NCBI GenBank assembly: GCA_028291505.1
Contig: JAQGHW010000097.1
Span: forward strand, 1-33,623
Direction of reading: 5' to 3'
From: Rhodopila sp.
GTDB lineage: Bacteria; Pseudomonadota; Alphaproteobacteria; Acetobacterales; Acetobacteraceae
Length of the DNA stretch: 33,623 nt
In this document: piece by piece, positions 1-33,046 of the stretch
Numbering within the stretch: position 1 is the first letter of the stretch
Layout of the letters: every line of letters starts with the position of its first letter
Notes under the pieces: generated by a model
Told to the model about the DNA's origin: nothing
Database searches by the model: none
Seen by the model: the letters and a program-made list of their open reading frames with translations, nothing else
Position numbers and translations under genes: made by a program

Positions 1-876
1 CTCCCCGATGTGGAAACGGCGGACCGGTTGGTGGCGCACGCGCGGGGTATCGGTGCAACCCTGGTGTTCGATCTCGATGATGATCTCTTGAACATCCCGC
101 GCAATCATCCCGAGGCGCAGGTGCTTCGCCCCCGTGCCAAGGTCGTGCGCAGGATGCTGGATGTCGCTGACGTCCTCTGGCTGTCCACGCCTGCTCTGGC
201 TGAGCGCCTGTCATCGATCCGTGCTGACGCCGAGGTGGTGGCGAATGGACTGGACGAACGCATCTGGACGCCGTCGACCGTACCCTCACAGGATCAACCG
301 GTGCGCATCCTGTGCATGGGAACAACCACGCACGAACGCGATTTCGCGATGATAGAGCCCGCACTTTCCCGGTTGAAGGCCGAATATGACAACCGGGTCG
401 TCATCGATATCGTCGGTATGACCACACGGAACGATCTTCCACCGGGTCTGAATCGAATTGGTCCGCCGGCCAACGCCTGGCGGTCCTATCCGGGTTTCGT
501 GAACTGGCTGACGTCGGTGACCCCGCCGTGGCATATCGGGCTCGCACCTTTACTGGATACGCCGTTCAATTTGTGCAAGTCGCCGATCAAGGCGATGGAC
601 TATGCCGCGATGGGCCTGGTCGTTCTGGCGTCCGATACGCCGGTCTATCGCGGGTCTATCGCTGACGGGCCGGCAGGGCAGCTTGTGGCGAACAGCCCGG
701 CTGCGTGGTATGCGGCACTGACGTGGCTGTTGCGCAACTGGGATTCGCGCCGAACCGTCGCAGCCCGATCGCGTGATGCATTTGTTGCGCAGGCCAGTTT
801 GGCCAGTCAGGCAGATGGACGGCATAATGCCTTGACGCGCATTCTCGAGGGCTGGAAAACAAATGCAGCCGCCTGA
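1..876 (+). CDS. Glycosyltransferase C-terminal part, 5'-truncated by the window edge
   Basis: The frame is open from base 1 (LPDVETADRLVAHARG...), aligning with IPDLDTANRLADHARR in the next gene. The whole product is strongly similar to the C-terminal ~280 aa of the downstream ORF (FDLDDDLLNIP, YPGFVNWLTS, WHIGLAPLLDTPFN, KAMDYAAMGL.VLASDTP.YRGSIADGPAGQLVAN). Confidence 0.85.
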   Translation, partial: LPDVETADRLVAHARGIGATLVFDLDDDLLNIPRNHPEAQVLRPRAKVVRRMLDVADVLWLSTPALAERLSSIRADAEVVANGLDERIWTPSTVPSQDQPVRILCMGTTTHERDFAMIEPALSRLKAEYDNRVVIDIVGMTTRNDLPPGLNRIGPPANAWRSYPGFVNWLTSVTPPWHIGLAPLLDTPFNLCKSPIKAMDYAAMGLVVLASDTPVYRGSIADGPAGQLVANSPAAWYAALTWLLRNWDSRRTVAARSRDAFVAQASLASQADGRHNALTRILEGWKTNAAA

Positions 877-3800
877 GAGCCATCCTCCCCAGGACAACTT
901 GCCTCAATCCCCGTTGGCTCGTCTGGGTGAATTTCTCGATGCCGATTGGTATCAGAAACAGAATCCGGACATCCTGCGCGGAACGCTTGATCCATACCAA
1001 CATTTCATTCGCTACGGCGCGGCCGAAAAGCGCGATCCAAACCGTTTCTTCGACAGTGCCTGGTATATTGAACACAATCCCGACGTCGCCGCGAGCGGCC
1101 TCAACCCACTGCTGCATTACGCGCAAGCCGGCGCGGCGGAGTTGCGCAGCCCGCATCCTCGATTCGATGCGGTTTACTACGTCGAGCAGCATCCGGAAGC
1201 GGCGAGCAACCCCCTGCTCTATCACCTTCGGGTCGGCATGGCGCGGGGCTACCCGACCGAGAGGTCGGTCAATGTCCGCGACTACCTGCTGTCTGAAAAA
1301 CCAGCTTTGCCGATTCCCCGCGGGGTTTTCGCCGACGTCGTCATCTGGGCCTGCCATGGATTTGCCGACACCACGCGATGCGTCCGCTCGGTTTTGGCGG
1401 ACCACGCTTTCCCGCTGGCCCGAATCATCGTTGTCGATGATCGCTCGCCGGAGCCGGAACTGGGCGAATGGTTGCTCAATTTGGCTGATGAAGGCCAGAT
1501 CCACCTGATCCGCAACCGCCGCCGCCTGGGCTTCGCCGCCTCGGCCAAGCTTGGCGTGGATGCCGCCGAAGGGCACGACGTCGTGTTCCTGAGCGGCGAT
1601 ACCGAAGTCCCTGCCGGCTGGCTGCGCCGGATGATCGCCCATGCTTATGCCCAGCCGAATATCGCGACAGTTTCGCCACTCTGGGATTATGCCGCGATCA
1701 GCGGCTACCCAGATGACGCGGGCGCCCCGATCCTGCCCGGGGACACACCCGCGCGGATCGACGAGATTTGCCAGACGGTCAATGTGGGCCGGTCCGCTGC
1801 GATACCGGTATCGGCGGACCATTGTTGCTACATCCGCCGGGCAGCTTTGCTGGCGGCCGGCGCCTTCAGTGCCGCGGACGGCGATTTCTGTGACCGCGCC
1901 ACGACTGCCGGTTGGCGGCACCGCCTGGCCTGCGACACATTTGTCTACCGCAACGGACCCGCGGACCCGCGGTACGCCAGCTTGCCGGACGTCATACCAT
2001 TCCAGTTCGCCGTGACGGCGGCGCTGTTCCGAGACTCTGGACTGCCGGTCATCCTGATGATCACCCACAATTTCGGCGGCGGAGTCAGGCGGCATATCGA
2101 CAGTCTGGTGCAACGCTATCGCGACACCGCTCGGGTGCTCCTGCTGGAGGGAAGCGATCGCGGCGCGGCCTTGTCGGTCCCATCGCTACCCGATCATCCG
2201 GTGCTGACGCTGCCCGCGGACCGGCTCGACGACCTGATTACCGTGCTTCAGGCGGCCGGCCTTGCGCGGATTCACATCCACCATCTGCTGCAGATGGATA
2301 TGGACATTCGCGCTCTGATCCACCGACTGGGCGTGCCGTTCGATGTCACCGTGCATGACTACTACGCCCTCTGCCCGCAGATAAACCTGTTGCGTTGGGA
2401 AGAAGGAATTTACTGCGGTGAACCGGGCCCCGCCGCCTGCAACGCCTGCATCGCCGAGCAAAGCTCGCACGGTGCCAGGGACATCGTTTCCTGGCGCCGT
2501 GACTGGGCGTGGCAATTCATGGATGCGGATCGGGTGATCTGCCCGAGCGCGGATGTGAAGACGCGGCTGGATCGTCATGGGGTGGGTAAACGCGCGATTC
2601 TCGTTCCTCATGAACAACAGACGGAATCAACTTGGACGACCCGCCTGCCGGAATTTCTCGGGCCTCCGTTGCGGATCGTGTTGCTTGGGGTCCTGGCCAA
2701 CCATAAGGGCGCCCGATCCGTCGCCGAAGTCGCAGAGGCTGTTGCTCCCGGAACGATCGAGATCCATTTGATTGGCCATCTGGAGGCCAGGTTTCCGCAA
2801 CCCGCCCGGAAACTGATCAAGGCAACAGGGCGATATCAAGACCGCGATCTGCCGGCGCTTCTGCAACGGATCGACCCGCACGTTTTCTGGTTTCCGTCCT
2901 CGGCGGCGGAAACCTACAGCTACACACTGAGTACCGCGATCGCCACAGGGCTGCCGATCGTGGCGACCGATCTTGGATCGTTCACCGAACGTCTTACCGG
3001 ACGCCCGCATACCTGGCTGGTGGATCATCGGGCCTCATCAAACGACTGGCTGACGGTTTTCGATGAAGTGCGGACGATCCTGCGCGACCGAGTGCCCCCC
3101 CCACACACACCGCGCCCGCCTGCGATCTCGAATTTTTACACCGATCGGTATCTGTCGCGGTCGGTTCGGTCGGCACAGCCCACCAAAGCGGACGCCCGCC
3201 CGGGTCAACGGCCCAGGATCGCCATTGTACCGGAACGATATGCCTCCGGTGGTTTGACGCCATGCGGCTATATCCGGCTCTTGCAGCCGCTGGATCATCC
3301 GGCGATCGGCGGCGAATTCGACATCATTTTGGCCGATGCCGAAACGATATTCGACTATGACGCGGACATCATCGTCACCCAGCGATACGCCATCCCCGAC
3401 CTGGACACGGCCAACCGGCTGGCGGATCACGCCCGCCGCACCGGGGCGAAACTGCTATTCGATCTCGACGACGACCTGCTGAATATCCCCCACCACCACC
3501 CGGACGCGGCGACGCTTCGGCCATACGCGAAGGTGGTCCGCCGGATGTTGACCGTCGCGGACGCTGTCTGGGTCTCAACTGCCGGCCTCGCTGAACGCCT
3601 GGCGCCGATCCGGCCGGATGCGACCGTTATCGAGAACCGGCTGGACGAACGCATCTGGATCCACAGCCCTGCCCCCCCTGCACCGCTTTGGGACGATCCA
3701 GTCCGCATCCTGTGCACCGGAACCAGCACGCACGACAGCGATTTCGCGATGATCGAGCCGGCCTTGCTGCGGCTGAAGGCCGAATACGGCGACCGGATCG

Positions 3801-4366
3801 TCATCGACGTGCTAGGGATGACCAGCCGCAGCGAGCTTCCGCCCGAGCTGAACCGGATCGGTCCATCCACCCATGCCTCGCGATCGTATCCGGGGTTCGT
3901 CAACTGGCTGACGTCGATGCAGCCACGCTGGCATATCGGACTGGCGCCGCTGCTGGATACGCCGTTCAACCGGAGCAAGTCGTCGATCAAGGCAATGGAT
4001 TACGCCGCGATGGGCCTGGCCGTGCTGGCGTCCGATACACCGATGTATCGCGGATCGATCGCCGATGGGCCGGCCGGACAGCTTGTCGCGAATGATCATC
4101 GCACCTGGCACGCCGCGCTGGACTGGCTGATCCGCAATCAGCATCTTCGTGCCTCCACCGCGATGCGGGCGCGTGAGGCGTTCCTGTCCCAGGCCACGCT
4201 GGCCAGCCATGCCGAGACAAGGCTGGCGGCCTGGATGCGGTTGTTGCCGAACCGGACCATTGACCACCGTGCCGGCTTGCGAGACGCCCCGGCCGCGCTA
4301 ACTATACCGAATGGTGCAACTGACCCCGTTACCCGAAAGAGGCGTTATGGCGGTGGAGGGCGATGA
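863..4366 (+). CDS. Multidomain glycosyltransferase: N-terminal NPDV/HY-type repeats, GT2-like domain, GT4-like domain, third GT domain
   Basis: 1167-aa ORF. Repeats FLDADWYQKQNPDI / FFDSAWYIEHNPDV / FDAVYYVEQHPE; GT2-like IIVVDDRSPEPE...; GT4-like ITHNFGGGVRRHIDSL and SSAAETYSYTLSTAIATGLPIVATDLGS; C-terminal module paralogous to the upstream ORF. Start overlaps the upstream stop by 14 nt. Confidence 0.85.
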   Translation: MQPPESHPPQDNLPQSPLARLGEFLDADWYQKQNPDILRGTLDPYQHFIRYGAAEKRDPNRFFDSAWYIEHNPDVAASGLNPLLHYAQAGAAELRSPHPRFDAVYYVEQHPEAASNPLLYHLRVGMARGYPTERSVNVRDYLLSEKPALPIPRGVFADVVIWACHGFADTTRCVRSVLADHAFPLARIIVVDDRSPEPELGEWLLNLADEGQIHLIRNRRRLGFAASAKLGVDAAEGHDVVFLSGDTEVPAGWLRRMIAHAYAQPNIATVSPLWDYAAISGYPDDAGAPILPGDTPARIDEICQTVNVGRSAAIPVSADHCCYIRRAALLAAGAFSAADGDFCDRATTAGWRHRLACDTFVYRNGPADPRYASLPDVIPFQFAVTAALFRDSGLPVILMITHNFGGGVRRHIDSLVQRYRDTARVLLLEGSDRGAALSVPSLPDHPVLTLPADRLDDLITVLQAAGLARIHIHHLLQMDMDIRALIHRLGVPFDVTVHDYYALCPQINLLRWEEGIYCGEPGPAACNACIAEQSSHGARDIVSWRRDWAWQFMDADRVICPSADVKTRLDRHGVGKRAILVPHEQQTESTWTTRLPEFLGPPLRIVLLGVLANHKGARSVAEVAEAVAPGTIEIHLIGHLEARFPQPARKLIKATGRYQDRDLPALLQRIDPHVFWFPSSAAETYSYTLSTAIATGLPIVATDLGSFTERLTGRPHTWLVDHRASSNDWLTVFDEVRTILRDRVPPPHTPRPPAISNFYTDRYLSRSVRSAQPTKADARPGQRPRIAIVPERYASGGLTPCGYIRLLQPLDHPAIGGEFDIILADAETIFDYDADIIVTQRYAIPDLDTANRLADHARRTGAKLLFDLDDDLLNIPHHHPDAATLRPYAKVVRRMLTVADAVWVSTAGLAERLAPIRPDATVIENRLDERIWIHSPAPPAPLWDDPVRILCTGTSTHDSDFAMIEPALLRLKAEYGDRIVIDVLGMTSRSELPPELNRIGPSTHASRSYPGFVNWLTSMQPRWHIGLAPLLDTPFNRSKSSIKAMDYAAMGLAVLASDTPMYRGSIADGPAGQLVANDHRTWHAALDWLIRNQHLRASTAMRAREAFLSQATLASHAETRLAAWMRLLPNRTIDHRAGLRDAPAALTIPNGATDPVTRKRRYGGGGR

Positions 4367-8452: not shown

Positions 8453-8517
8453 TATGGATGCGAGTCCGGTTGCCATGCGTGCGGTGCAACACCGGTAGAA
8501 CTTTGTTGGGGAGATGC

Positions 8518-8895
8518 ATGGGGCCTTGGGTCGCGGTCGCCGTCGGCGGCGCAATCGGCAGCGTGGCTCGATTCTGGCTGGCGGGGGCCATGACGGCACT
8601 GACCGGACCGAGATTCCCGTGGGGAACCCTGCTGATCAACGTGCTCGGGTCGTTCGTCATCGGACTGGTGGCCGGGATCACCCTGACGCCGGCGCGGGTC
8701 GGGATGCATCCCGACGTCCGCATCTTCCTGATGACGGGCGTGTGCGGCGGCTTCACGACGTTCTCGGCGTTCAGCCTGCAGACGCTGGAACTGATGCAGA
8801 CCGGCGACGTCGTGCCGGCATTCGCCTATACCGTCGGCTCGGTCGTGTTTTGCGTCCTCGCCACCTATTGCGGCTGGCGGCTCGGGCGGGTCTGA
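8518..8895 (+). CDS. crcB: CrcB/FluC fluoride channel
   Basis: GGAIGSVARFWL, FPWGTLLINVLGSFVIGL, GVCGGFTTFSAFSLQTLEL are diagnostic. ATG at 8518 preceded by GGGGAG. Confidence 0.93.
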   Translation: MGPWVAVAVGGAIGSVARFWLAGAMTALTGPRFPWGTLLINVLGSFVIGLVAGITLTPARVGMHPDVRIFLMTGVCGGFTTFSAFSLQTLELMQTGDVVPAFAYTVGSVVFCVLATYCGWRLGRV

Positions 8896-9026: not shown

Positions 9027-10244
9027 ATGGACCTGATTATCCGCAACGCACGTTTGTTTGGTGGTGCGCCGACCGATATCGGTGTCGCGGGCGGCAAGAT
9101 CGTTGCGATCGAGGCCGGGCTTGCCGCGGCCGCGCTTGAGTACAACGCCGGCGGTCATCTCGTTTGCGCCGGACTGGTCGAGACTCACATTCACCTGGAC
9201 AAGACCCGCATCATCGACCGCTGTCCCCCCGAGGATGGCCGCAACGCCAATGCGGTTCCGCGCGTCGCCGCAGTCAAGAATACGTTTACCGAGGAAGACG
9301 TCTACCAGCGCGCCAGTACCACACTGGAAAACTGCATCAAGCACGGTACGACGCGAATGCGGACCCATGTCGAGCTGGATGCCGGGGTGGAGATGCGAAG
9401 CTTCGATGCGCTGCAGAAATTGTGCCGCGACTATGCCTGGGCGATCGATATTGAATTGTGCGTATTCCCGCAGGAGGGCCTGACCAACAATCCGCGCTCC
9501 GACGAACTGCTGGTGCAGGCGCTGAAGCGTGGTGCCCGTGTGATTGGCGCGGCGCCCAACTACGATCCCGACAGGAGTGGGCAAATACATCGGATTTTTG
9601 ACCTGGCCCGCGAGTATGACGCGGATATCGACATGCATCTGGATACCGGTAGCAACTCGGCGGACATGGATATTCATCTGGTTTGCTCGTTGACCCGGCA
9701 ATACGCCATGGGCGGGCGCGTCGCGGTCGGACACGGGTGCAAATATTCGGCTTTGCCGCCGGCCGATTTGCGTGCGCTGGCGGCCGAGATAGCCGATGCC
9801 GGCGTCGCGGTTACGGTGCTTCCCGCGACCGACCTTTACATGATGGGCCGCGACCAGGACCATAACGTCCGCCGCGGTGTCGCGGATGCGAACGTTCTGG
9901 TGGAGAATGGGGTCAACTGCTCGATCTCTTCGAACAACATTCTGAACCCGTTTACACCGTTGGGCGACGGTAACCTGATCCGCATCGCCAACATCCAGGC
10001 CAATGTTTGCCAAATCGGCGAATCGCACCGGCTGCGCGAATGCTTCTCCATGCTGACAGATCGTTCCGCCCGCTTGATGAATCTGCAGGACTACGGAGTA
10101 GCCGTCGGCAACCCAGCGGATCTCGTGGTTTTCGACGCAAGGACGCCAGAGGAAGTAATCGCCGAAGTCCGTGGACCGTTGGTCGCGTTCAAGCGCGGGG
10201 TGCGGACGGTGACGCGGCCACGCGCGGAGTTGCATCGGCCATGA
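9027..10244 (+). CDS. Amidohydrolase-superfamily protein, cytosine deaminase (CodA)-like subgroup
   Basis: N-terminal MDLIIRNARLFGG, HIHLDKT, AVGHGCKYS, NPFTPLGDGNLIRIANI; C-terminal GNPADLVVFDA. Confidence 0.83.
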   Translation: MDLIIRNARLFGGAPTDIGVAGGKIVAIEAGLAAAALEYNAGGHLVCAGLVETHIHLDKTRIIDRCPPEDGRNANAVPRVAAVKNTFTEEDVYQRASTTLENCIKHGTTRMRTHVELDAGVEMRSFDALQKLCRDYAWAIDIELCVFPQEGLTNNPRSDELLVQALKRGARVIGAAPNYDPDRSGQIHRIFDLAREYDADIDMHLDTGSNSADMDIHLVCSLTRQYAMGGRVAVGHGCKYSALPPADLRALAAEIADAGVAVTVLPATDLYMMGRDQDHNVRRGVADANVLVENGVNCSISSNNILNPFTPLGDGNLIRIANIQANVCQIGESHRLRECFSMLTDRSARLMNLQDYGVAVGNPADLVVFDARTPEEVIAEVRGPLVAFKRGVRTVTRPRAELHRP

Positions 10245-10543
10245 AACTATCCGACATCGCCCAAGTGATCCGCAGCAAGAATGCGGGTCCCCGGCGACTG
10301 ACATTGGATATCATGTTCGGTTCGGACGCGGACTATCAGCGCGTCGCCCAGTCACCCGCACTTGGCGCTGAAAACATCGGCCGCTTGTATCGCGTGCCGG
10401 CCGATCAGGTGACCATTATCCCCTACCCGGTCGGCCGAGCGATCAAGATCGTGATGGCGCGGGCGATCATGGCGGGCGATCCGGGGGATTACGACGTTTA
10501 CGGGGCGCAACAACATGCGCCGCTCCTGGCGATCGAGGTATGA
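10241..10543 (+). CDS. DUF4387 domain protein
   Basis: ~100 aa; RSKNAGPRRLTLDIMFGSDADYQRV, GRAIKIVMARAIMAGDPGDYDVYGAQQHAPLL. ATGA overlap with the preceding gene. Confidence 0.8.
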   Translation: MKLSDIAQVIRSKNAGPRRLTLDIMFGSDADYQRVAQSPALGAENIGRLYRVPADQVTIIPYPVGRAIKIVMARAIMAGDPGDYDVYGAQQHAPLLAIEV

Positions 10544-11934
10544 GCGCCTCCGGTCGCGTCATCGCGGAATTTCGTCGAACCCCACGTCCGATCCGGTTGC
10601 TTGGTGCGTCCGGTCAACTCGGTTATGGCATCCCCGCGGCGTCGTTCAAAGCCGGCCTTGAGCGCCAACCCGACCTGATCGGGTGCGATATGGGATCGAT
10701 CGACATCGGCCCCACCTACCTGGGCAAGGGCGAGATGGCGACCTCCCCCGAGGCAACGCGCCGCGACCTTCGCCGCGTGCTGAACGCCGCGCGAGGCCTG
10801 GACGTTCCGCTGGTGATTGGAACCGCGGGATCGGCCGGCGCTGCCCCGCATCTCGACGCCACCCTCGCGATGTTGCGCGAAATCGCCCATGCAGACGGGC
10901 TGCGCTTCCGGATGGCGATGATGCGGGCCGATATCCCCCGGCCGTTTCTGGTCGAAGCTGTTCGTTCCGCTAAGATCAGCAGCTTCGACGGCATGCCGGC
11001 ACTGACCGAGGAAGACGTCGTCGAGGCGGCCCATATCGTTGGCCAGATGGGAATGGCGCCATTTCGGAAAGCGCTTGAAGCGGACGTCGACGTGATCGTA
11101 GCCGGGCGAGCCTGCGATACGGCGATCTTCGCATCGCTGCCGGTCGTCCTGGGGTTTCCGGTCGGGCTCGCCATGCACATGGCCAAGATTATCGAATGCG
11201 GGTCGCTGTGCTGCGTTCCAGGCGGCCGCGATCCGATTCTCGCGGAGCTGGATCATGATGGGTTCACACTCGAAAGCATGAACCCGGAACGGCGCGCCAC
11301 ACCGACCTCGGTCGCCGCCCATAGCCTATACGAGCAGTCTGATCCATTCACCATGCAGGAGCCTGACGGCACGTTGGATCTGACCCACGCTCGGTATGAG
11401 GCGGTGGATGATCGCCGCACCCGGGTCAGTGGCGCGACCTGGCGCGACACCATCCTACCGACCATCAAACTCGAAGGCGCACGCAAGATCGGTGAGCGCG
11501 CGGTGCTGTTGTGCGGGTCGGCGGATCCCCGGTTTATCGCGCAGTGCAAGACGCTGCTGCCGAAGGTCGCGGAACTCGTGCAGAGCCTGGTCTGCGAAGA
11601 ACAGAATATGGATTATACATTGCACTTCCGCGTCTATGGCATCGACGGCGTGCGCATGGTGGTACCGGAGAATGAGCCACCGCCCGGCGAGGTGTTCATC
11701 ATGGGTGAATGCATCGCGCCGACCCAACAGCGCGCTTCGGAAGTCGTGCGCACCTGCAAGCAGTTTCTGTTGCATTTCGGCTATCCCGGGCGTCTCTCCA
11801 CGGCCGGGAATGTTGCGTTCCCGTTCACCCCGCCCGAGGTCTCGCTAGGCCCGGCGTATCGGTTCAATGTGTATCATCTGCTGCATGTCGACGATGCCGA
11901 CGCGCTGTTTCCGGTAGAAGTCGAGGCTGTCTGA
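10540..11934 (+). CDS. Acyclic terpene utilisation AtuA-like (DUF1446) family protein
   Basis: 464 aa; IRLLGASGQLGYGIP, DLIGCDMGSIDIGPTYLGKGE, VIGTAGSAGAAPHLD. Adjacent to DUF4387 with ATGA overlap, a common pairing for these families. Confidence 0.78.
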   Translation: MSASGRVIAEFRRTPRPIRLLGASGQLGYGIPAASFKAGLERQPDLIGCDMGSIDIGPTYLGKGEMATSPEATRRDLRRVLNAARGLDVPLVIGTAGSAGAAPHLDATLAMLREIAHADGLRFRMAMMRADIPRPFLVEAVRSAKISSFDGMPALTEEDVVEAAHIVGQMGMAPFRKALEADVDVIVAGRACDTAIFASLPVVLGFPVGLAMHMAKIIECGSLCCVPGGRDPILAELDHDGFTLESMNPERRATPTSVAAHSLYEQSDPFTMQEPDGTLDLTHARYEAVDDRRTRVSGATWRDTILPTIKLEGARKIGERAVLLCGSADPRFIAQCKTLLPKVAELVQSLVCEEQNMDYTLHFRVYGIDGVRMVVPENEPPPGEVFIMGECIAPTQQRASEVVRTCKQFLLHFGYPGRLSTAGNVAFPFTPPEVSLGPAYRFNVYHLLHVDDADALFPVEVEAV

Positions 11935-11984: not shown

Positions 11985-13571
11985 TCACTTCACCTGCACG
12001 AAGCGGTATGGGAAAAAATTATCCGCTGGCTGAGCCAACTGAATGTTCGTCTTTGCCGCCCACACGATCACCTGTTGGTGCAACGGAACGGTCGGCACGT
12101 TCTGCTGCAGCATTTCGATCGATTGGTGGATCATCGACGACCGCTTCGCCGGATCCGTTTCGATGCCGATCTTATCGGTCAGTTCGTCGAGTGCGGGATT
12201 GGAATAGCCGCCGTTATTTACCTCGCCGCGCTTGCCATTACGGGTGTTTAACAGCGTGTACAAGACATTATGCGCGTCATAGGTCGCCGGGGTCCAACCC
12301 AGCAGGTAAAAATCCGTATCGTAGTTCGGTGCATTGATCTTGGTAAAGAATTTCGACTTGGTCTGCGCGATCAGATCGACCTTGATGCCGACGCGAGCCA
12401 GCATTGAAACGATGGCGGTGCAGATCTGCTCATCCATCACATAGCGGTCGGTGGGACAGTCCAGCGCAACCTGAAAGCCATTCGGATATCCCGCATCGGC
12501 CAGCAATTGCTTCGACTTGGCAGGATCGACTTTCGGCCGCACATCCAGCGCCGCATCGTAGCCATTGACACCCGGACCCCACATCTCCCAGGTCGGATGC
12601 CCCAGCCCCAGCATCACGCGGGTCGCAATCGCCGGCTCATCGATCGCCAATGCGACCGCCTCGCGCACCTTCTCATCCTTGAACGGGTTCTTCCCCTTCA
12701 CGTTGGAGCTTGGCAGTTCAGCGCGGGTCTGGTTGAAGCCCAGGTAGATCGTCCGGAGCTCCGGTGTCTGCAGTATTTTCAGTCCCTCGGTCTGCTTGAT
12801 CCGGGCGATATCCTGCGGTGGCACGGTGTAGATCATATCCATCTCGCCCGACAGCAGCGCTGCCACTCGGGTCGGCGCGGAGGCGATCACGTTGAACTCG
12901 ACCCGGTCGAGATTATGCTCCGGCTTATCCCACCACAGCGGGTTCTTCTCCACCACCGTCTTGCGGTCAGGCTCCCGCGAGACCAGGGTGAATGGCCCGG
13001 TCCCCATGGCGTTGTGCAGCGCGTAGTTGTCTTCCTTGCCGATCGTCACCGGTTCGGTCGCGTTATGCGCCTCGCACCAGGCCTTCGACATGATCAGCAG
13101 GTTGGTCTGCTCCTGCAGGAAGATCGGGTCGGGCACGAAGGTCTCAAAGTCGACGGTCAGGTCATCGATCTTGCGCGCCTCCTTCACCGGCGACATCGGG
13201 GCGCGCATCTGCGAATTCGGTGCCTCGACCCGCTTCACGGTGAACACCACATCGTCGGCGGTGAATGGCGAGCCATCCTGCCATTTCACACCAGGCCGCA
13301 GATGGAAGCGCCAGACGGTCGGCGACGTCTGCTCCCACGACGTCGCCAAGGCGGGATCCAGCCCGAGGTCACGATTGCGGCGCACCAGCGGTTCATAAAT
13401 ATTGGCCAGGAAACTAAGCTGCACCGTTTCCTGCCGCGTCGCGGGGTCCATGGCGTTGACATCCCCGTCATTTGCCCAGCGCAAGGTGGCGGCCTGGGCC
13501 GTCGATAGTGCAAATGGTGATGCCGTCAAAGCGGCCAGCAGCGCCATCGTGGGAAGCGGGAAACGCAGCAT
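11985..13571 (-). CDS. ABC transporter family-5 (peptide/opine/nickel type) solute-binding protein
   Basis: 528 aa with signal peptide (LLAALTASPFALSTAQA); ALATSWEQTSPTVWRFHLRPGVKWQDGSPFTADDVVFTV is an SBP_bac_5 hallmark. Confidence 0.92.
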   Translation of the reverse strand: MLRFPLPTMALLAALTASPFALSTAQAATLRWANDGDVNAMDPATRQETVQLSFLANIYEPLVRRNRDLGLDPALATSWEQTSPTVWRFHLRPGVKWQDGSPFTADDVVFTVKRVEAPNSQMRAPMSPVKEARKIDDLTVDFETFVPDPIFLQEQTNLLIMSKAWCEAHNATEPVTIGKEDNYALHNAMGTGPFTLVSREPDRKTVVEKNPLWWDKPEHNLDRVEFNVIASAPTRVAALLSGEMDMIYTVPPQDIARIKQTEGLKILQTPELRTIYLGFNQTRAELPSSNVKGKNPFKDEKVREAVALAIDEPAIATRVMLGLGHPTWEMWGPGVNGYDAALDVRPKVDPAKSKQLLADAGYPNGFQVALDCPTDRYVMDEQICTAIVSMLARVGIKVDLIAQTKSKFFTKINAPNYDTDFYLLGWTPATYDAHNVLYTLLNTRNGKRGEVNNGGYSNPALDELTDKIGIETDPAKRSSMIHQSIEMLQQNVPTVPLHQQVIVWAAKTNIQLAQPADNFFPYRFVQVK

Positions 13572-13788
13572 AAATTTTTGCCCCTGGTGTGCTAACTCTT
13601 CGTTGGGTCGCGTGATTCACGTGCCCCCGCCTTCGCAGGGACAAGCTTTGAGCGTTCCGCCCCCCGTTTTGTTGGCGTCAGCCAAGGCTAACCGAAACGC
13701 TTGGCCGCTCAACGCGATCATGGCCCGGTCCGACCCAACCAGATGAAACTAAACCGGGTCGGCGATCCTGAACAGAGAGAGAATGCAC

Positions 13789-14433
13789 ATGCAAATCGAT
13801 AATCGGACCGATATCCTTGGTCTGGTCGACGTCCAGCCTACCTTCATGCCGAATGGGGAACTGCCGGTGGCGGACGGTGACGCCATCATTCCGGTCGTCA
13901 ACAAACTGCTGCGTCGCTTCGACCACGCCTTCGCGACCCAGGACTGGCACCCGAATGGTCACGCCTCCTTCGCCAGTGCACATCCGCGCAAGCGACCCTA
14001 TGACGCCATAGGAATGACTTATGGCAATCAAGTCCTTTGGCCCGATCATGCCATCGCCGGCACGCCAACCGCCGCGATTCACCCCGCCATCGACCAGACC
14101 AGGATCGAAGTAATCATCCGCAAGGGATTTCGCTCGTCATTGGATAGCTACTCGGCGTTTTTCGAGAATGACCGGCAGACACCGACTGGCCTGGAGGCGT
14201 GGCTCCGTCAGCGTGGCTTTTCCCGCATCTTTCTGTGCGGTCTCGCCACCGATTTCTGTGTTGCATGGTCAGCCGAGGATGCGGTTCGGCTGGGCTTTAC
14301 AGTTGTCGTGGTCGAAGATGCCTGCCGTGGGATCGGCCTGCCTGCACCAGACGGCCGTAGCACGATTGAGACGACACGCGACGCACTAATCGCTGGTGGC
14401 GTGCGGTTCGTCGACAGTGCCGTGCTGCGCTAG
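13789..14433 (+). CDS. pncA: Nicotinamidase/pyrazinamidase
   Basis: DVQPTFMPNGELPVADGD, ATQDWHPNGHASFAS, QVLWPDHAIAGT, RKGFRSSLDSYSAFFEND, GLATDFCVAWSAEDA. Confidence 0.92.
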   Translation: MQIDNRTDILGLVDVQPTFMPNGELPVADGDAIIPVVNKLLRRFDHAFATQDWHPNGHASFASAHPRKRPYDAIGMTYGNQVLWPDHAIAGTPTAAIHPAIDQTRIEVIIRKGFRSSLDSYSAFFENDRQTPTGLEAWLRQRGFSRIFLCGLATDFCVAWSAEDAVRLGFTVVVVEDACRGIGLPAPDGRSTIETTRDALIAGGVRFVDSAVLR

Positions 14434-31410: not shown

Positions 31411-31513
31411 TTGGGTAATGCTCCTGTAGTCATTAGCTGATGCGCTCGTTAGGTGTGATTTGGCAAAGTGTCAGGAACGGAGCGCAAATCAGCGCACGAT
31501 GGGGGAAGAAATC

Positions 31514-33046
31514 ATGGCTGGTGTTCATGGCACGCCGCCGCGCGGGCTGGCGGCAACGCGTTCGCCGCTTTTCCAGGGCCGCTTTGGCCGGATGTTCAGA
31601 AATTTGCCCGCCGCCCGGTTCGGATCGACCGAAGGCGACAATATTGCGAATCTGGCTGCATTAGCGGACGCAATGACCGCTACGTTCGACAAGCCGACCG
31701 ATGGACCTGATCCTGAAGAAAGCGGGATCCCGGCGCTCTATACCTATCTCGGGCAATTTATCGACCACGACATTACGTTCGATCCGGTAAGCATGCTGAC
31801 CAAGATGCAAGACCCCGACGGGCTTGTCGATTTTCGTAGTCCCGCTTTGGATCTTGATAACATCTACGGCCGCGGGCCGAACGACCAGCCCTACATGTAC
31901 GACGGCCTCAAGTTCCGGCTGGGAGATGCACTGATTGGTCAAGGCGTTCCCGACGCCAATGACCTTCCAAGATTTGCCGGACGCGCACTGATTGGCGACC
32001 CGCGCAATGACGAGAACAGCATCGTTTCCCAACTGCAAGGGCTATTCCATAGATTTCATAACCGCATGATCGACGACAATGCTGGCCTCGACTTCGAGGC
32101 GGCGCAACAGCGGGTACGATTCCACTATCAGTATATGATACTGAATGACTTTCTGCCGCGCATCATCAACAGCGCGGTGCTCGATGATCTAAAAACGGCC
32201 GGACATTACGATCGGGGCAAGATAAAATATTTCCATTGGAAGAACCTGCCGTTTATGCCTGTCGAATTCTCGGTGGCTGCGTATCGTCTCGGCCACTCGA
32301 TGATACGGCCCGGATACCGCCTGAATGCGGCTGATGACATGCTCTTGCCGATTTTCCCCAAGCCGGATCAAGGCTTTCCGGTCGGGCTGACCGGTTTCCA
32401 GACAATGGCAGCCGGGCGTGCGATTGATTGGGGTCGTTTCATTGACGTGGATGTTCGCGGCTATGGAGCCGATGGGCAGGACGTTGTGAACAAGCAGCGA
32501 CTTCAATTTGCATATCGTATCGATCCGTCACTGGTAAATCCGCTGGCAACCCTGCCGCCCAGCGTTGTGTCCGATCCGCCGCCATCCCTGGGGCAGCGCA
32601 ACCTGGAGCGTGGCTGGCGTTTGGGATTGCCGTCCGGTCAGTCAGTCGCGAAGGCGATGCGGATTGCGCCGCTCAACGACGATCAGATACTGATCGGCAA
32701 GGCGGTGGATCAACAAGATCCTGGCGTTAACCCGGTTAGCATCGACCAGATCGCCAACGGCGTCTTCGCCAACAACTGCCCGCTGTGGACTTACATCCTT
32801 GCGGAGGCGGTTCAGCATAAGACGCCTGTCACGGTACCGGTTACGGACGGCCCGGGTACGATCACCACACCCCAACTGGGACCTGTGGGCGGCCGCATTG
32901 TCGCCGAGGTGATCCTGGGCCTGATGTTCGGAGACGGGTCGTCGATGCTGTCATTGGATCCGCAGTTCATTCCTGTAACTGGTGCTGGGTTCGCGCTGAA
33001 GAATTTCGTTTCCTACAGTTTGGGGCAAGGGCCTGCGTTGCATTGA
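31514..33046 (+). CDS. Animal-type (peroxidase-cyclooxygenase superfamily) heme peroxidase
   Basis: LGQFIDHDITFDP (distal His/Ca-binding Asp motif), QLQGLFHRFHNRMIDD, AYRLGHSMI (proximal His region). Start chosen after GGGGGAAG. Confidence 0.88.
   Translation: MAGVHGTPPRGLAATRSPLFQGRFGRMFRNLPAARFGSTEGDNIANLAALADAMTATFDKPTDGPDPEESGIPALYTYLGQFIDHDITFDPVSMLTKMQDPDGLVDFRSPALDLDNIYGRGPNDQPYMYDGLKFRLGDALIGQGVPDANDLPRFAGRALIGDPRNDENSIVSQLQGLFHRFHNRMIDDNAGLDFEAAQQRVRFHYQYMILNDFLPRIINSAVLDDLKTAGHYDRGKIKYFHWKNLPFMPVEFSVAAYRLGHSMIRPGYRLNAADDMLLPIFPKPDQGFPVGLTGFQTMAAGRAIDWGRFIDVDVRGYGADGQDVVNKQRLQFAYRIDPSLVNPLATLPPSVVSDPPPSLGQRNLERGWRLGLPSGQSVAKAMRIAPLNDDQILIGKAVDQQDPGVNPVSIDQIANGVFANNCPLWTYILAEAVQHKTPVTVPVTDGPGTITTPQLGPVGGRIVAEVILGLMFGDGSSMLSLDPQFIPVTGAGFALKNFVSYSLGQGPALH

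Follow-up and report, generated by a model that had tools for sequence, protein, structure and literature searches.

The stretch of DNA analyzed here (the window; 33,623 nucleotides) is a single contig of a 7.06 Mb Rhodopila draft genome, and its AtuA protein shares 85% identity with its counterpart in Rhodopila globiformis DSM 161 and 89–90% with proteins of Rhodopila MAGs. On the forward strand lie three overlapping genes that form a real operon, encoding a CodA/AtzC-like amidohydrolase of 405 residues (9027..10244; Pfam Amidohydro_3, E = 4.8e-30), a DUF4387 protein of 100 residues (10241..10543; Pfam, 3.7e-31), and an AtuA/DUF1446 protein of 464 residues (10540..11934; Pfam AtuA, 1e-16). 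Both junctions, read in the sequence itself, are ATGA overlaps, the amidohydrolase stop meeting the DUF4387 start at 10241..10244 and the DUF4387 stop meeting the AtuA start at 10540..10543. The three reading frames, both overlaps, the family names, and a convergent gene for a family-5 ABC solute-binding protein (SBP5) 50 bp away had been described in a sequence-only reading, and the sequence and Pfam matches bear them out; its further claim, that the overlaps imply stoichiometric production, goes too far, since 4-nt overlaps are common in bacterial operons and point to translational coupling only. The −4 overlap recurs between DUF4387 and AtuA at 56 of 75 loci and between amidohydrolase and DUF4387 at 9 of the 15 loci with the full trio. 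Several Rhodopila loci (L105, L106, L108, L109, L112, and L141) have an insert of ~31–430 bp at the DUF4387–AtuA junction that abolishes the −4 overlap; it spans 6296–6722 in L112 and 5744–5840 in L108, where it contains a REP-like 37-nt inverted repeat.

The gene directly upstream of the trio (8458..8895, + strand) encodes a CrcB-family protein, is conserved across the window's subclade, and stands outside the trio. Downstream, the SBP5 gene (11985..13571, − strand; Pfam SBP_bac_5, 1.8e-91) lies 50 bp past the AtuA stop and is accompanied by a gene for a nicotinamidase-type isochorismatase-fold protein (13783..14433, + strand; above the NCBIfam cut-off), also outside the trio. These two genes follow the trio solely in the nearest Rhodopila relatives, and in relatives keeping SBP5 it is about 1.0–2.1 kb away, with an SDR gene intervening in at least one. 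No importer permease or ATPase gene was found beside SBP5 among the window ORFs scanned. SBP5 is probably a separate unit, and we set aside a single uptake/catabolic unit that includes it because of the opposite strand, the unconserved spacing, and the lack of a permease gene among the scanned ORFs. Of the uptake/catabolic pathway proposed earlier, a catabolic role of the trio is likely, but the SBP5 link to uptake is weak, being kept in the closest relatives only. An Rfam scan of the window gave zero matches, hence no catalogued riboswitch, and promoter and terminator scans gave results no better than chance. Elsewhere, the window encodes a protein of 1167 residues that carries glycosyltransferase domains of family 2 and group 1/4 (863–4366) and an animal heme peroxidase-like protein (31460–33046; Pfam, 5.4e-12).

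A sequence search of the PDB identified chains A and B of entries 9ERQ and 9EVF as the sole relatives of the AtuA and DUF4387 proteins (5.9e-107 and 4.8e-26, respectively). These chains are deposited under the name citramalate lyase subunits A and B (CmlA and CmlB), 9EVF bearing the title “Citramalate lyase - ADP - pyruvate complex”, so the earlier view of a pair without a settled role is outdated. Our text searches of the literature retrieved no paper on 9ERQ/9EVF or on the biochemistry of the DUF4387/AtuA pair, and the citramalate lyase name therefore rests on the PDB deposit. The window AtuA as modeled by AlphaFold (pLDDT 91.7) matches 9EVF chain A with TM scores of 0.91/0.93 and an rmsd of 2.0, and a structure search with this model returned nothing besides 9EVF at E ≤ 0.001. 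Among 105 AtuA positions that are invariant in 38 proteins of the window's clade, 78 are identical in CmlA (30 of them polar), and all 17 DUF4387 positions invariant among 27 proteins are identical in CmlB (9ERQ chain B); the shared invariants include R190, D193, H213, K216, and E219. The window pair and CmlA/CmlB thus have two families and a near-identical fold in common, but their identity is ~40% for AtuA and 54% for DUF4387, their gene order is reversed, and the window's AtuA clade carries its own substitutions (in CmlA terms, C192>Y, S222>A, C225>A, R230>S, and P255>E), so that the substrate may differ from that of CmlA. Judged by its sequence, the pair represents an already known type of lyase, with DUF4387 as the CmlB-type small subunit and AtuA as the CmlA-type large subunit.

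CmlA shares 94% and CmlB 92% identity with the products of AtuA–DUF4387 genes on a Salmonella plasmid. There, the two genes come immediately after the one for methylaspartate ammonia-lyase, and their cluster also includes methylaspartate mutase and class I fumarase; a DUF1446 gene after a methylaspartate ammonia-lyase gene has been described without an assigned function (PMC4682846). We found no convincing methylaspartate ammonia-lyase in the eight Rhodopila genomes tested and none on the window contig, the MAAL_C matches in Rhodopila being only weak and of a kind that also arises in 11 of 14 control genomes. With this marker lacking in the genomes tested, a methylaspartate pathway in the host is unsupported, and the substrate may be something other than citramalate itself; the family assignment is unaffected. 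The window protein also shares the Pfam AtuA family with AtuA of the acyclic terpene utilization cluster. Many family members in our class sample are ~600 aa long with a C-terminal ferredoxin-fold domain, unlike the window AtuA, and a profile comparison of DUF4387 with this domain did not show homology (probability 0.6%).

DUF4387 is present in 24 of 241 genomes of the class-wide sample, with AtuA adjacent at every locus except one that has little flanking sequence. Likewise, in a named set of 80 loci that carry a window-type AtuA, DUF4387 is directly upstream in nearly all, the exceptions being contig ends and R. globiformis. The recurrent pairing of DUF4387 with AtuA that had been noted therefore holds at nearly every locus examined. 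The pair occurs in two gene orders, with the window falling in the DUF4387-first clade, and is present in 1,099 of 5,426 complete E. coli genomes. We tallied 89 neighboring proteins at loci beyond the core Acetobacteraceae set, calling genes with a simple script and without a background control, and found TctC (12), D-2-hydroxyacid dehydrogenase (7), ABC ATPase (6), PEP mutase (4), Ldh_2, ICL, and isochorismatase (3 each), and DctQ and DctM (2 each). The usual surroundings of the pair are thus tricarboxylate uptake (TctC), TRAP transporters, hydroxyacid enzymes, and the PEP-mutase/ICL family, with PrpD-, PrpF-, and tricarballylate-dehydrogenase-like genes near some pairs (judged by eye from sequence). 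The Amidohydro family is absent among the 25 families listed for these neighbors.

The solved proteins nearest to the amidohydrolase in a PDB sequence search are E. coli cytosine deaminase CodA (E = 3.8e-53) and then AtzC (N-isopropylammelide isopropylaminohydrolase). Across 50 sequences of its family, the HxH, FPQEG, HLD, and GH motifs are nearly constant, and the window protein retains them, with the first extending to HxHxxK. The family keeps the metal histidines and Q156 of CodA, but E217 and D313 are substituted almost throughout: the E217 position is Glu in 0 of 50 sequences (T in the window protein), and 47 of 50 have Asn where CodA has D313, the window protein among them. From AtzC, it retains HxHxxK, Lys65, the FPQEG Gln, and the Asn304 equivalent; the His/His/His/Asp zinc site differs by Asn in place of Asp303, and the His219 position holds Ser, Phe, Val, Thr, or other residues. 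By alignment, then, an Asn sits at a usually conserved catalytic position. Losing the Asp need not abolish activity, since AtzC D303N is active on ammelide, with a k_cat of 90 vs. 26 per s (PMC4577212). Outside Rhodopila, the 76 neighboring proteins of the amidohydrolase include branched-chain/urea-type ABC permeases (8), amidases (6), gamma-glutamyltranspeptidases (6), urease subunits (2), and Asp/Glu/hydantoin racemases (2), and in M. currus hydantoinase A/B and an M20 hydrolase are close by. A urease alpha gene abuts the amidohydrolase gene in two related genomes (L240, 7862–9574; L244, 3092–4804), a lead towards a urea-releasing substrate.

An amidohydrolase orthologue with at least 62% identity is found by coordinates in 29 of 32 other members of the genus (split in two pieces in one, G257), and in about half of these 32 it lies <1 kb from DUF4387. 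In the named set, leaving out loci with too little upstream sequence, the amidohydrolase is upstream of the pair at 15 of 28 informative Acetobacteraceae loci. The sequence-only reading had called the pair “locked” to the amidohydrolase and named as its refutation a neighborhood analysis in which the amidohydrolase is not conserved with the pair, which is the outcome outside the lineage. The three genes are coupled in the window, but the lock does not hold: the amidohydrolase is beside the pair at 0 of 43 informative loci outside Acetobacteraceae and, beyond the lineage, at 0 of 20 extended class loci, and within Rhodopila-type Acetobacteraceae it has repeatedly been lost or separated. In one Rhodopila locus (L112, 5690–5993), the amidohydrolase core is lost in frame and the pair retained, leaving a remnant of about 97 codons that comprises the N- and C-terminal ends only and still runs into DUF4387; a natural deletion and a MAG misassembly are both possible origins. 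Another (L216) has lost the pair and kept an amidohydrolase with intact motifs. In R. globiformis (L227, L228), amidohydrolase and DUF4387 are on one scaffold and AtuA, with its frame intact, lies inside another, so that the genes for the two lyase subunits are separated. In the tree, members with the trio occur in both main Rhodopila subclades, interspersed with members without it, a pattern consistent with a single joining of the amidohydrolase followed by several separations. The amidohydrolase is therefore a lineage-limited, loosely held partner of the pair in Rhodopila and close relatives.

Three Rhodopila genomes (G246, G248, and G264) are without any DUF4387 or AtuA match, and their amidohydrolases (L214, L215, and L218) are the only 3 of 50 in which the D313 position holds a residue other than Asn. 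In L214 and L218, metal-binding histidines are missing as well (TRIHLD for THIHLD; the His of HLD), and these two proteins may be inactive. The three genomes form one clade, so the altered enzymes count as one event. The change resembles decay of the amidohydrolase after loss of the lyase, a hint of a shared pathway.

This evidence can be read in other ways. That the operon serves pyrimidine salvage, with the amidohydrolase an ordinary cytosine/pyrimidine deaminase, is suggested by the closeness of CodA among solved structures, but cytosine deamination is unlikely with E217 never Glu and D313 mostly Asn, and the scores fall far below the NCBIfam cut-offs; we regard this reading as highly improbable and set it aside. 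Appreciably stronger, though still short of an even chance, is a reading in which the pair is of citramalate-lyase type and the amidohydrolase a passenger, an independent nitrogen-scavenging hydrolase with no common substrate. The two are never together at the loci examined outside the lineage, each has been lost while the other was kept (L112 and L216) or, for the R. globiformis AtuA, placed on another contig, and their usual neighbors differ, the hydrolase occurring with amidases, ABC permeases, and urease and the pair with carboxylate genes. Against a passenger stand the trio adjacency itself, which spans both main Rhodopila subclades at protein identities of about 70–90% and often with the −4 overlap, and the altered active sites in the pair-less genomes.

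The pair could also have diverged to another reaction, for example by hydrating or isomerizing its substrate or by cleaving a different branched acid, as the name AtuA, taken from terpene catabolism, might suggest. The ~40% identity to CmlA, the clade-specific substitutions close to conserved motifs, and the varied neighborhoods with PrpD-, PrpF-, and tricarballylate-dehydrogenase-like genes would fit such a change; however, most invariant polar residues are common to CmlA, the fold is nearly identical, and the neighborhoods remain centered on hydroxy- and tricarboxylates, and we consider this divergence unlikely.

We instead favor, as reasonably probable, a 2-hydroxy acid lyase of the citramalate-lyase type that a ring-opening hydrolase joined once in the lineage. 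DUF4387 and AtuA would form one two-subunit carbon–carbon lyase whose substrate is a branched 2-hydroxy-carboxylate, such as citramalate. Its retro-aldol cleavage would yield a short carboxylate and a 2-oxo acid (pyruvate), with ATP perhaps being used to activate the acid product, as the ADP in the solved 9EVF complex suggests. The upstream gene would encode a mononuclear-metal amidohydrolase with a pocket closer to that of AtzC than that of CodA, most likely opening a cyclic amide or imide or cleaving a C–N bond; in the Rhodopila lineage, the lyase operon would have acquired this gene a single time, and the hydrolase product probably feeds the lyase. We infer the chemistry shared with citramalate lyase, the substrate class, and the use of ATP; the pathway shared with the hydrolase is hinted at mainly by operon position, in one lineage in which either partner can be lost. 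More tentatively, and on balance doubtfully, the Rhodopila lineage may possess a catabolic route in which a nitrogen-containing compound is opened by an atypical amidohydrolase, naturally devoid of the usual catalytic Asp, and the branched 2-hydroxy acid that this provides goes on to an enzyme of citramalate-lyase type with a new specificity.

The trio does not amount to a novel type of system; its family assignment is useful and its hydrolase is odd. DUF4387 and AtuA/DUF1446 are widespread and still labeled unknown or terpene-related, and the lyase link gives testable chemistry for many unexplained loci, while substrate discovery gains a compact target in the amidohydrolase family, which has Asn at a usually conserved catalytic position.
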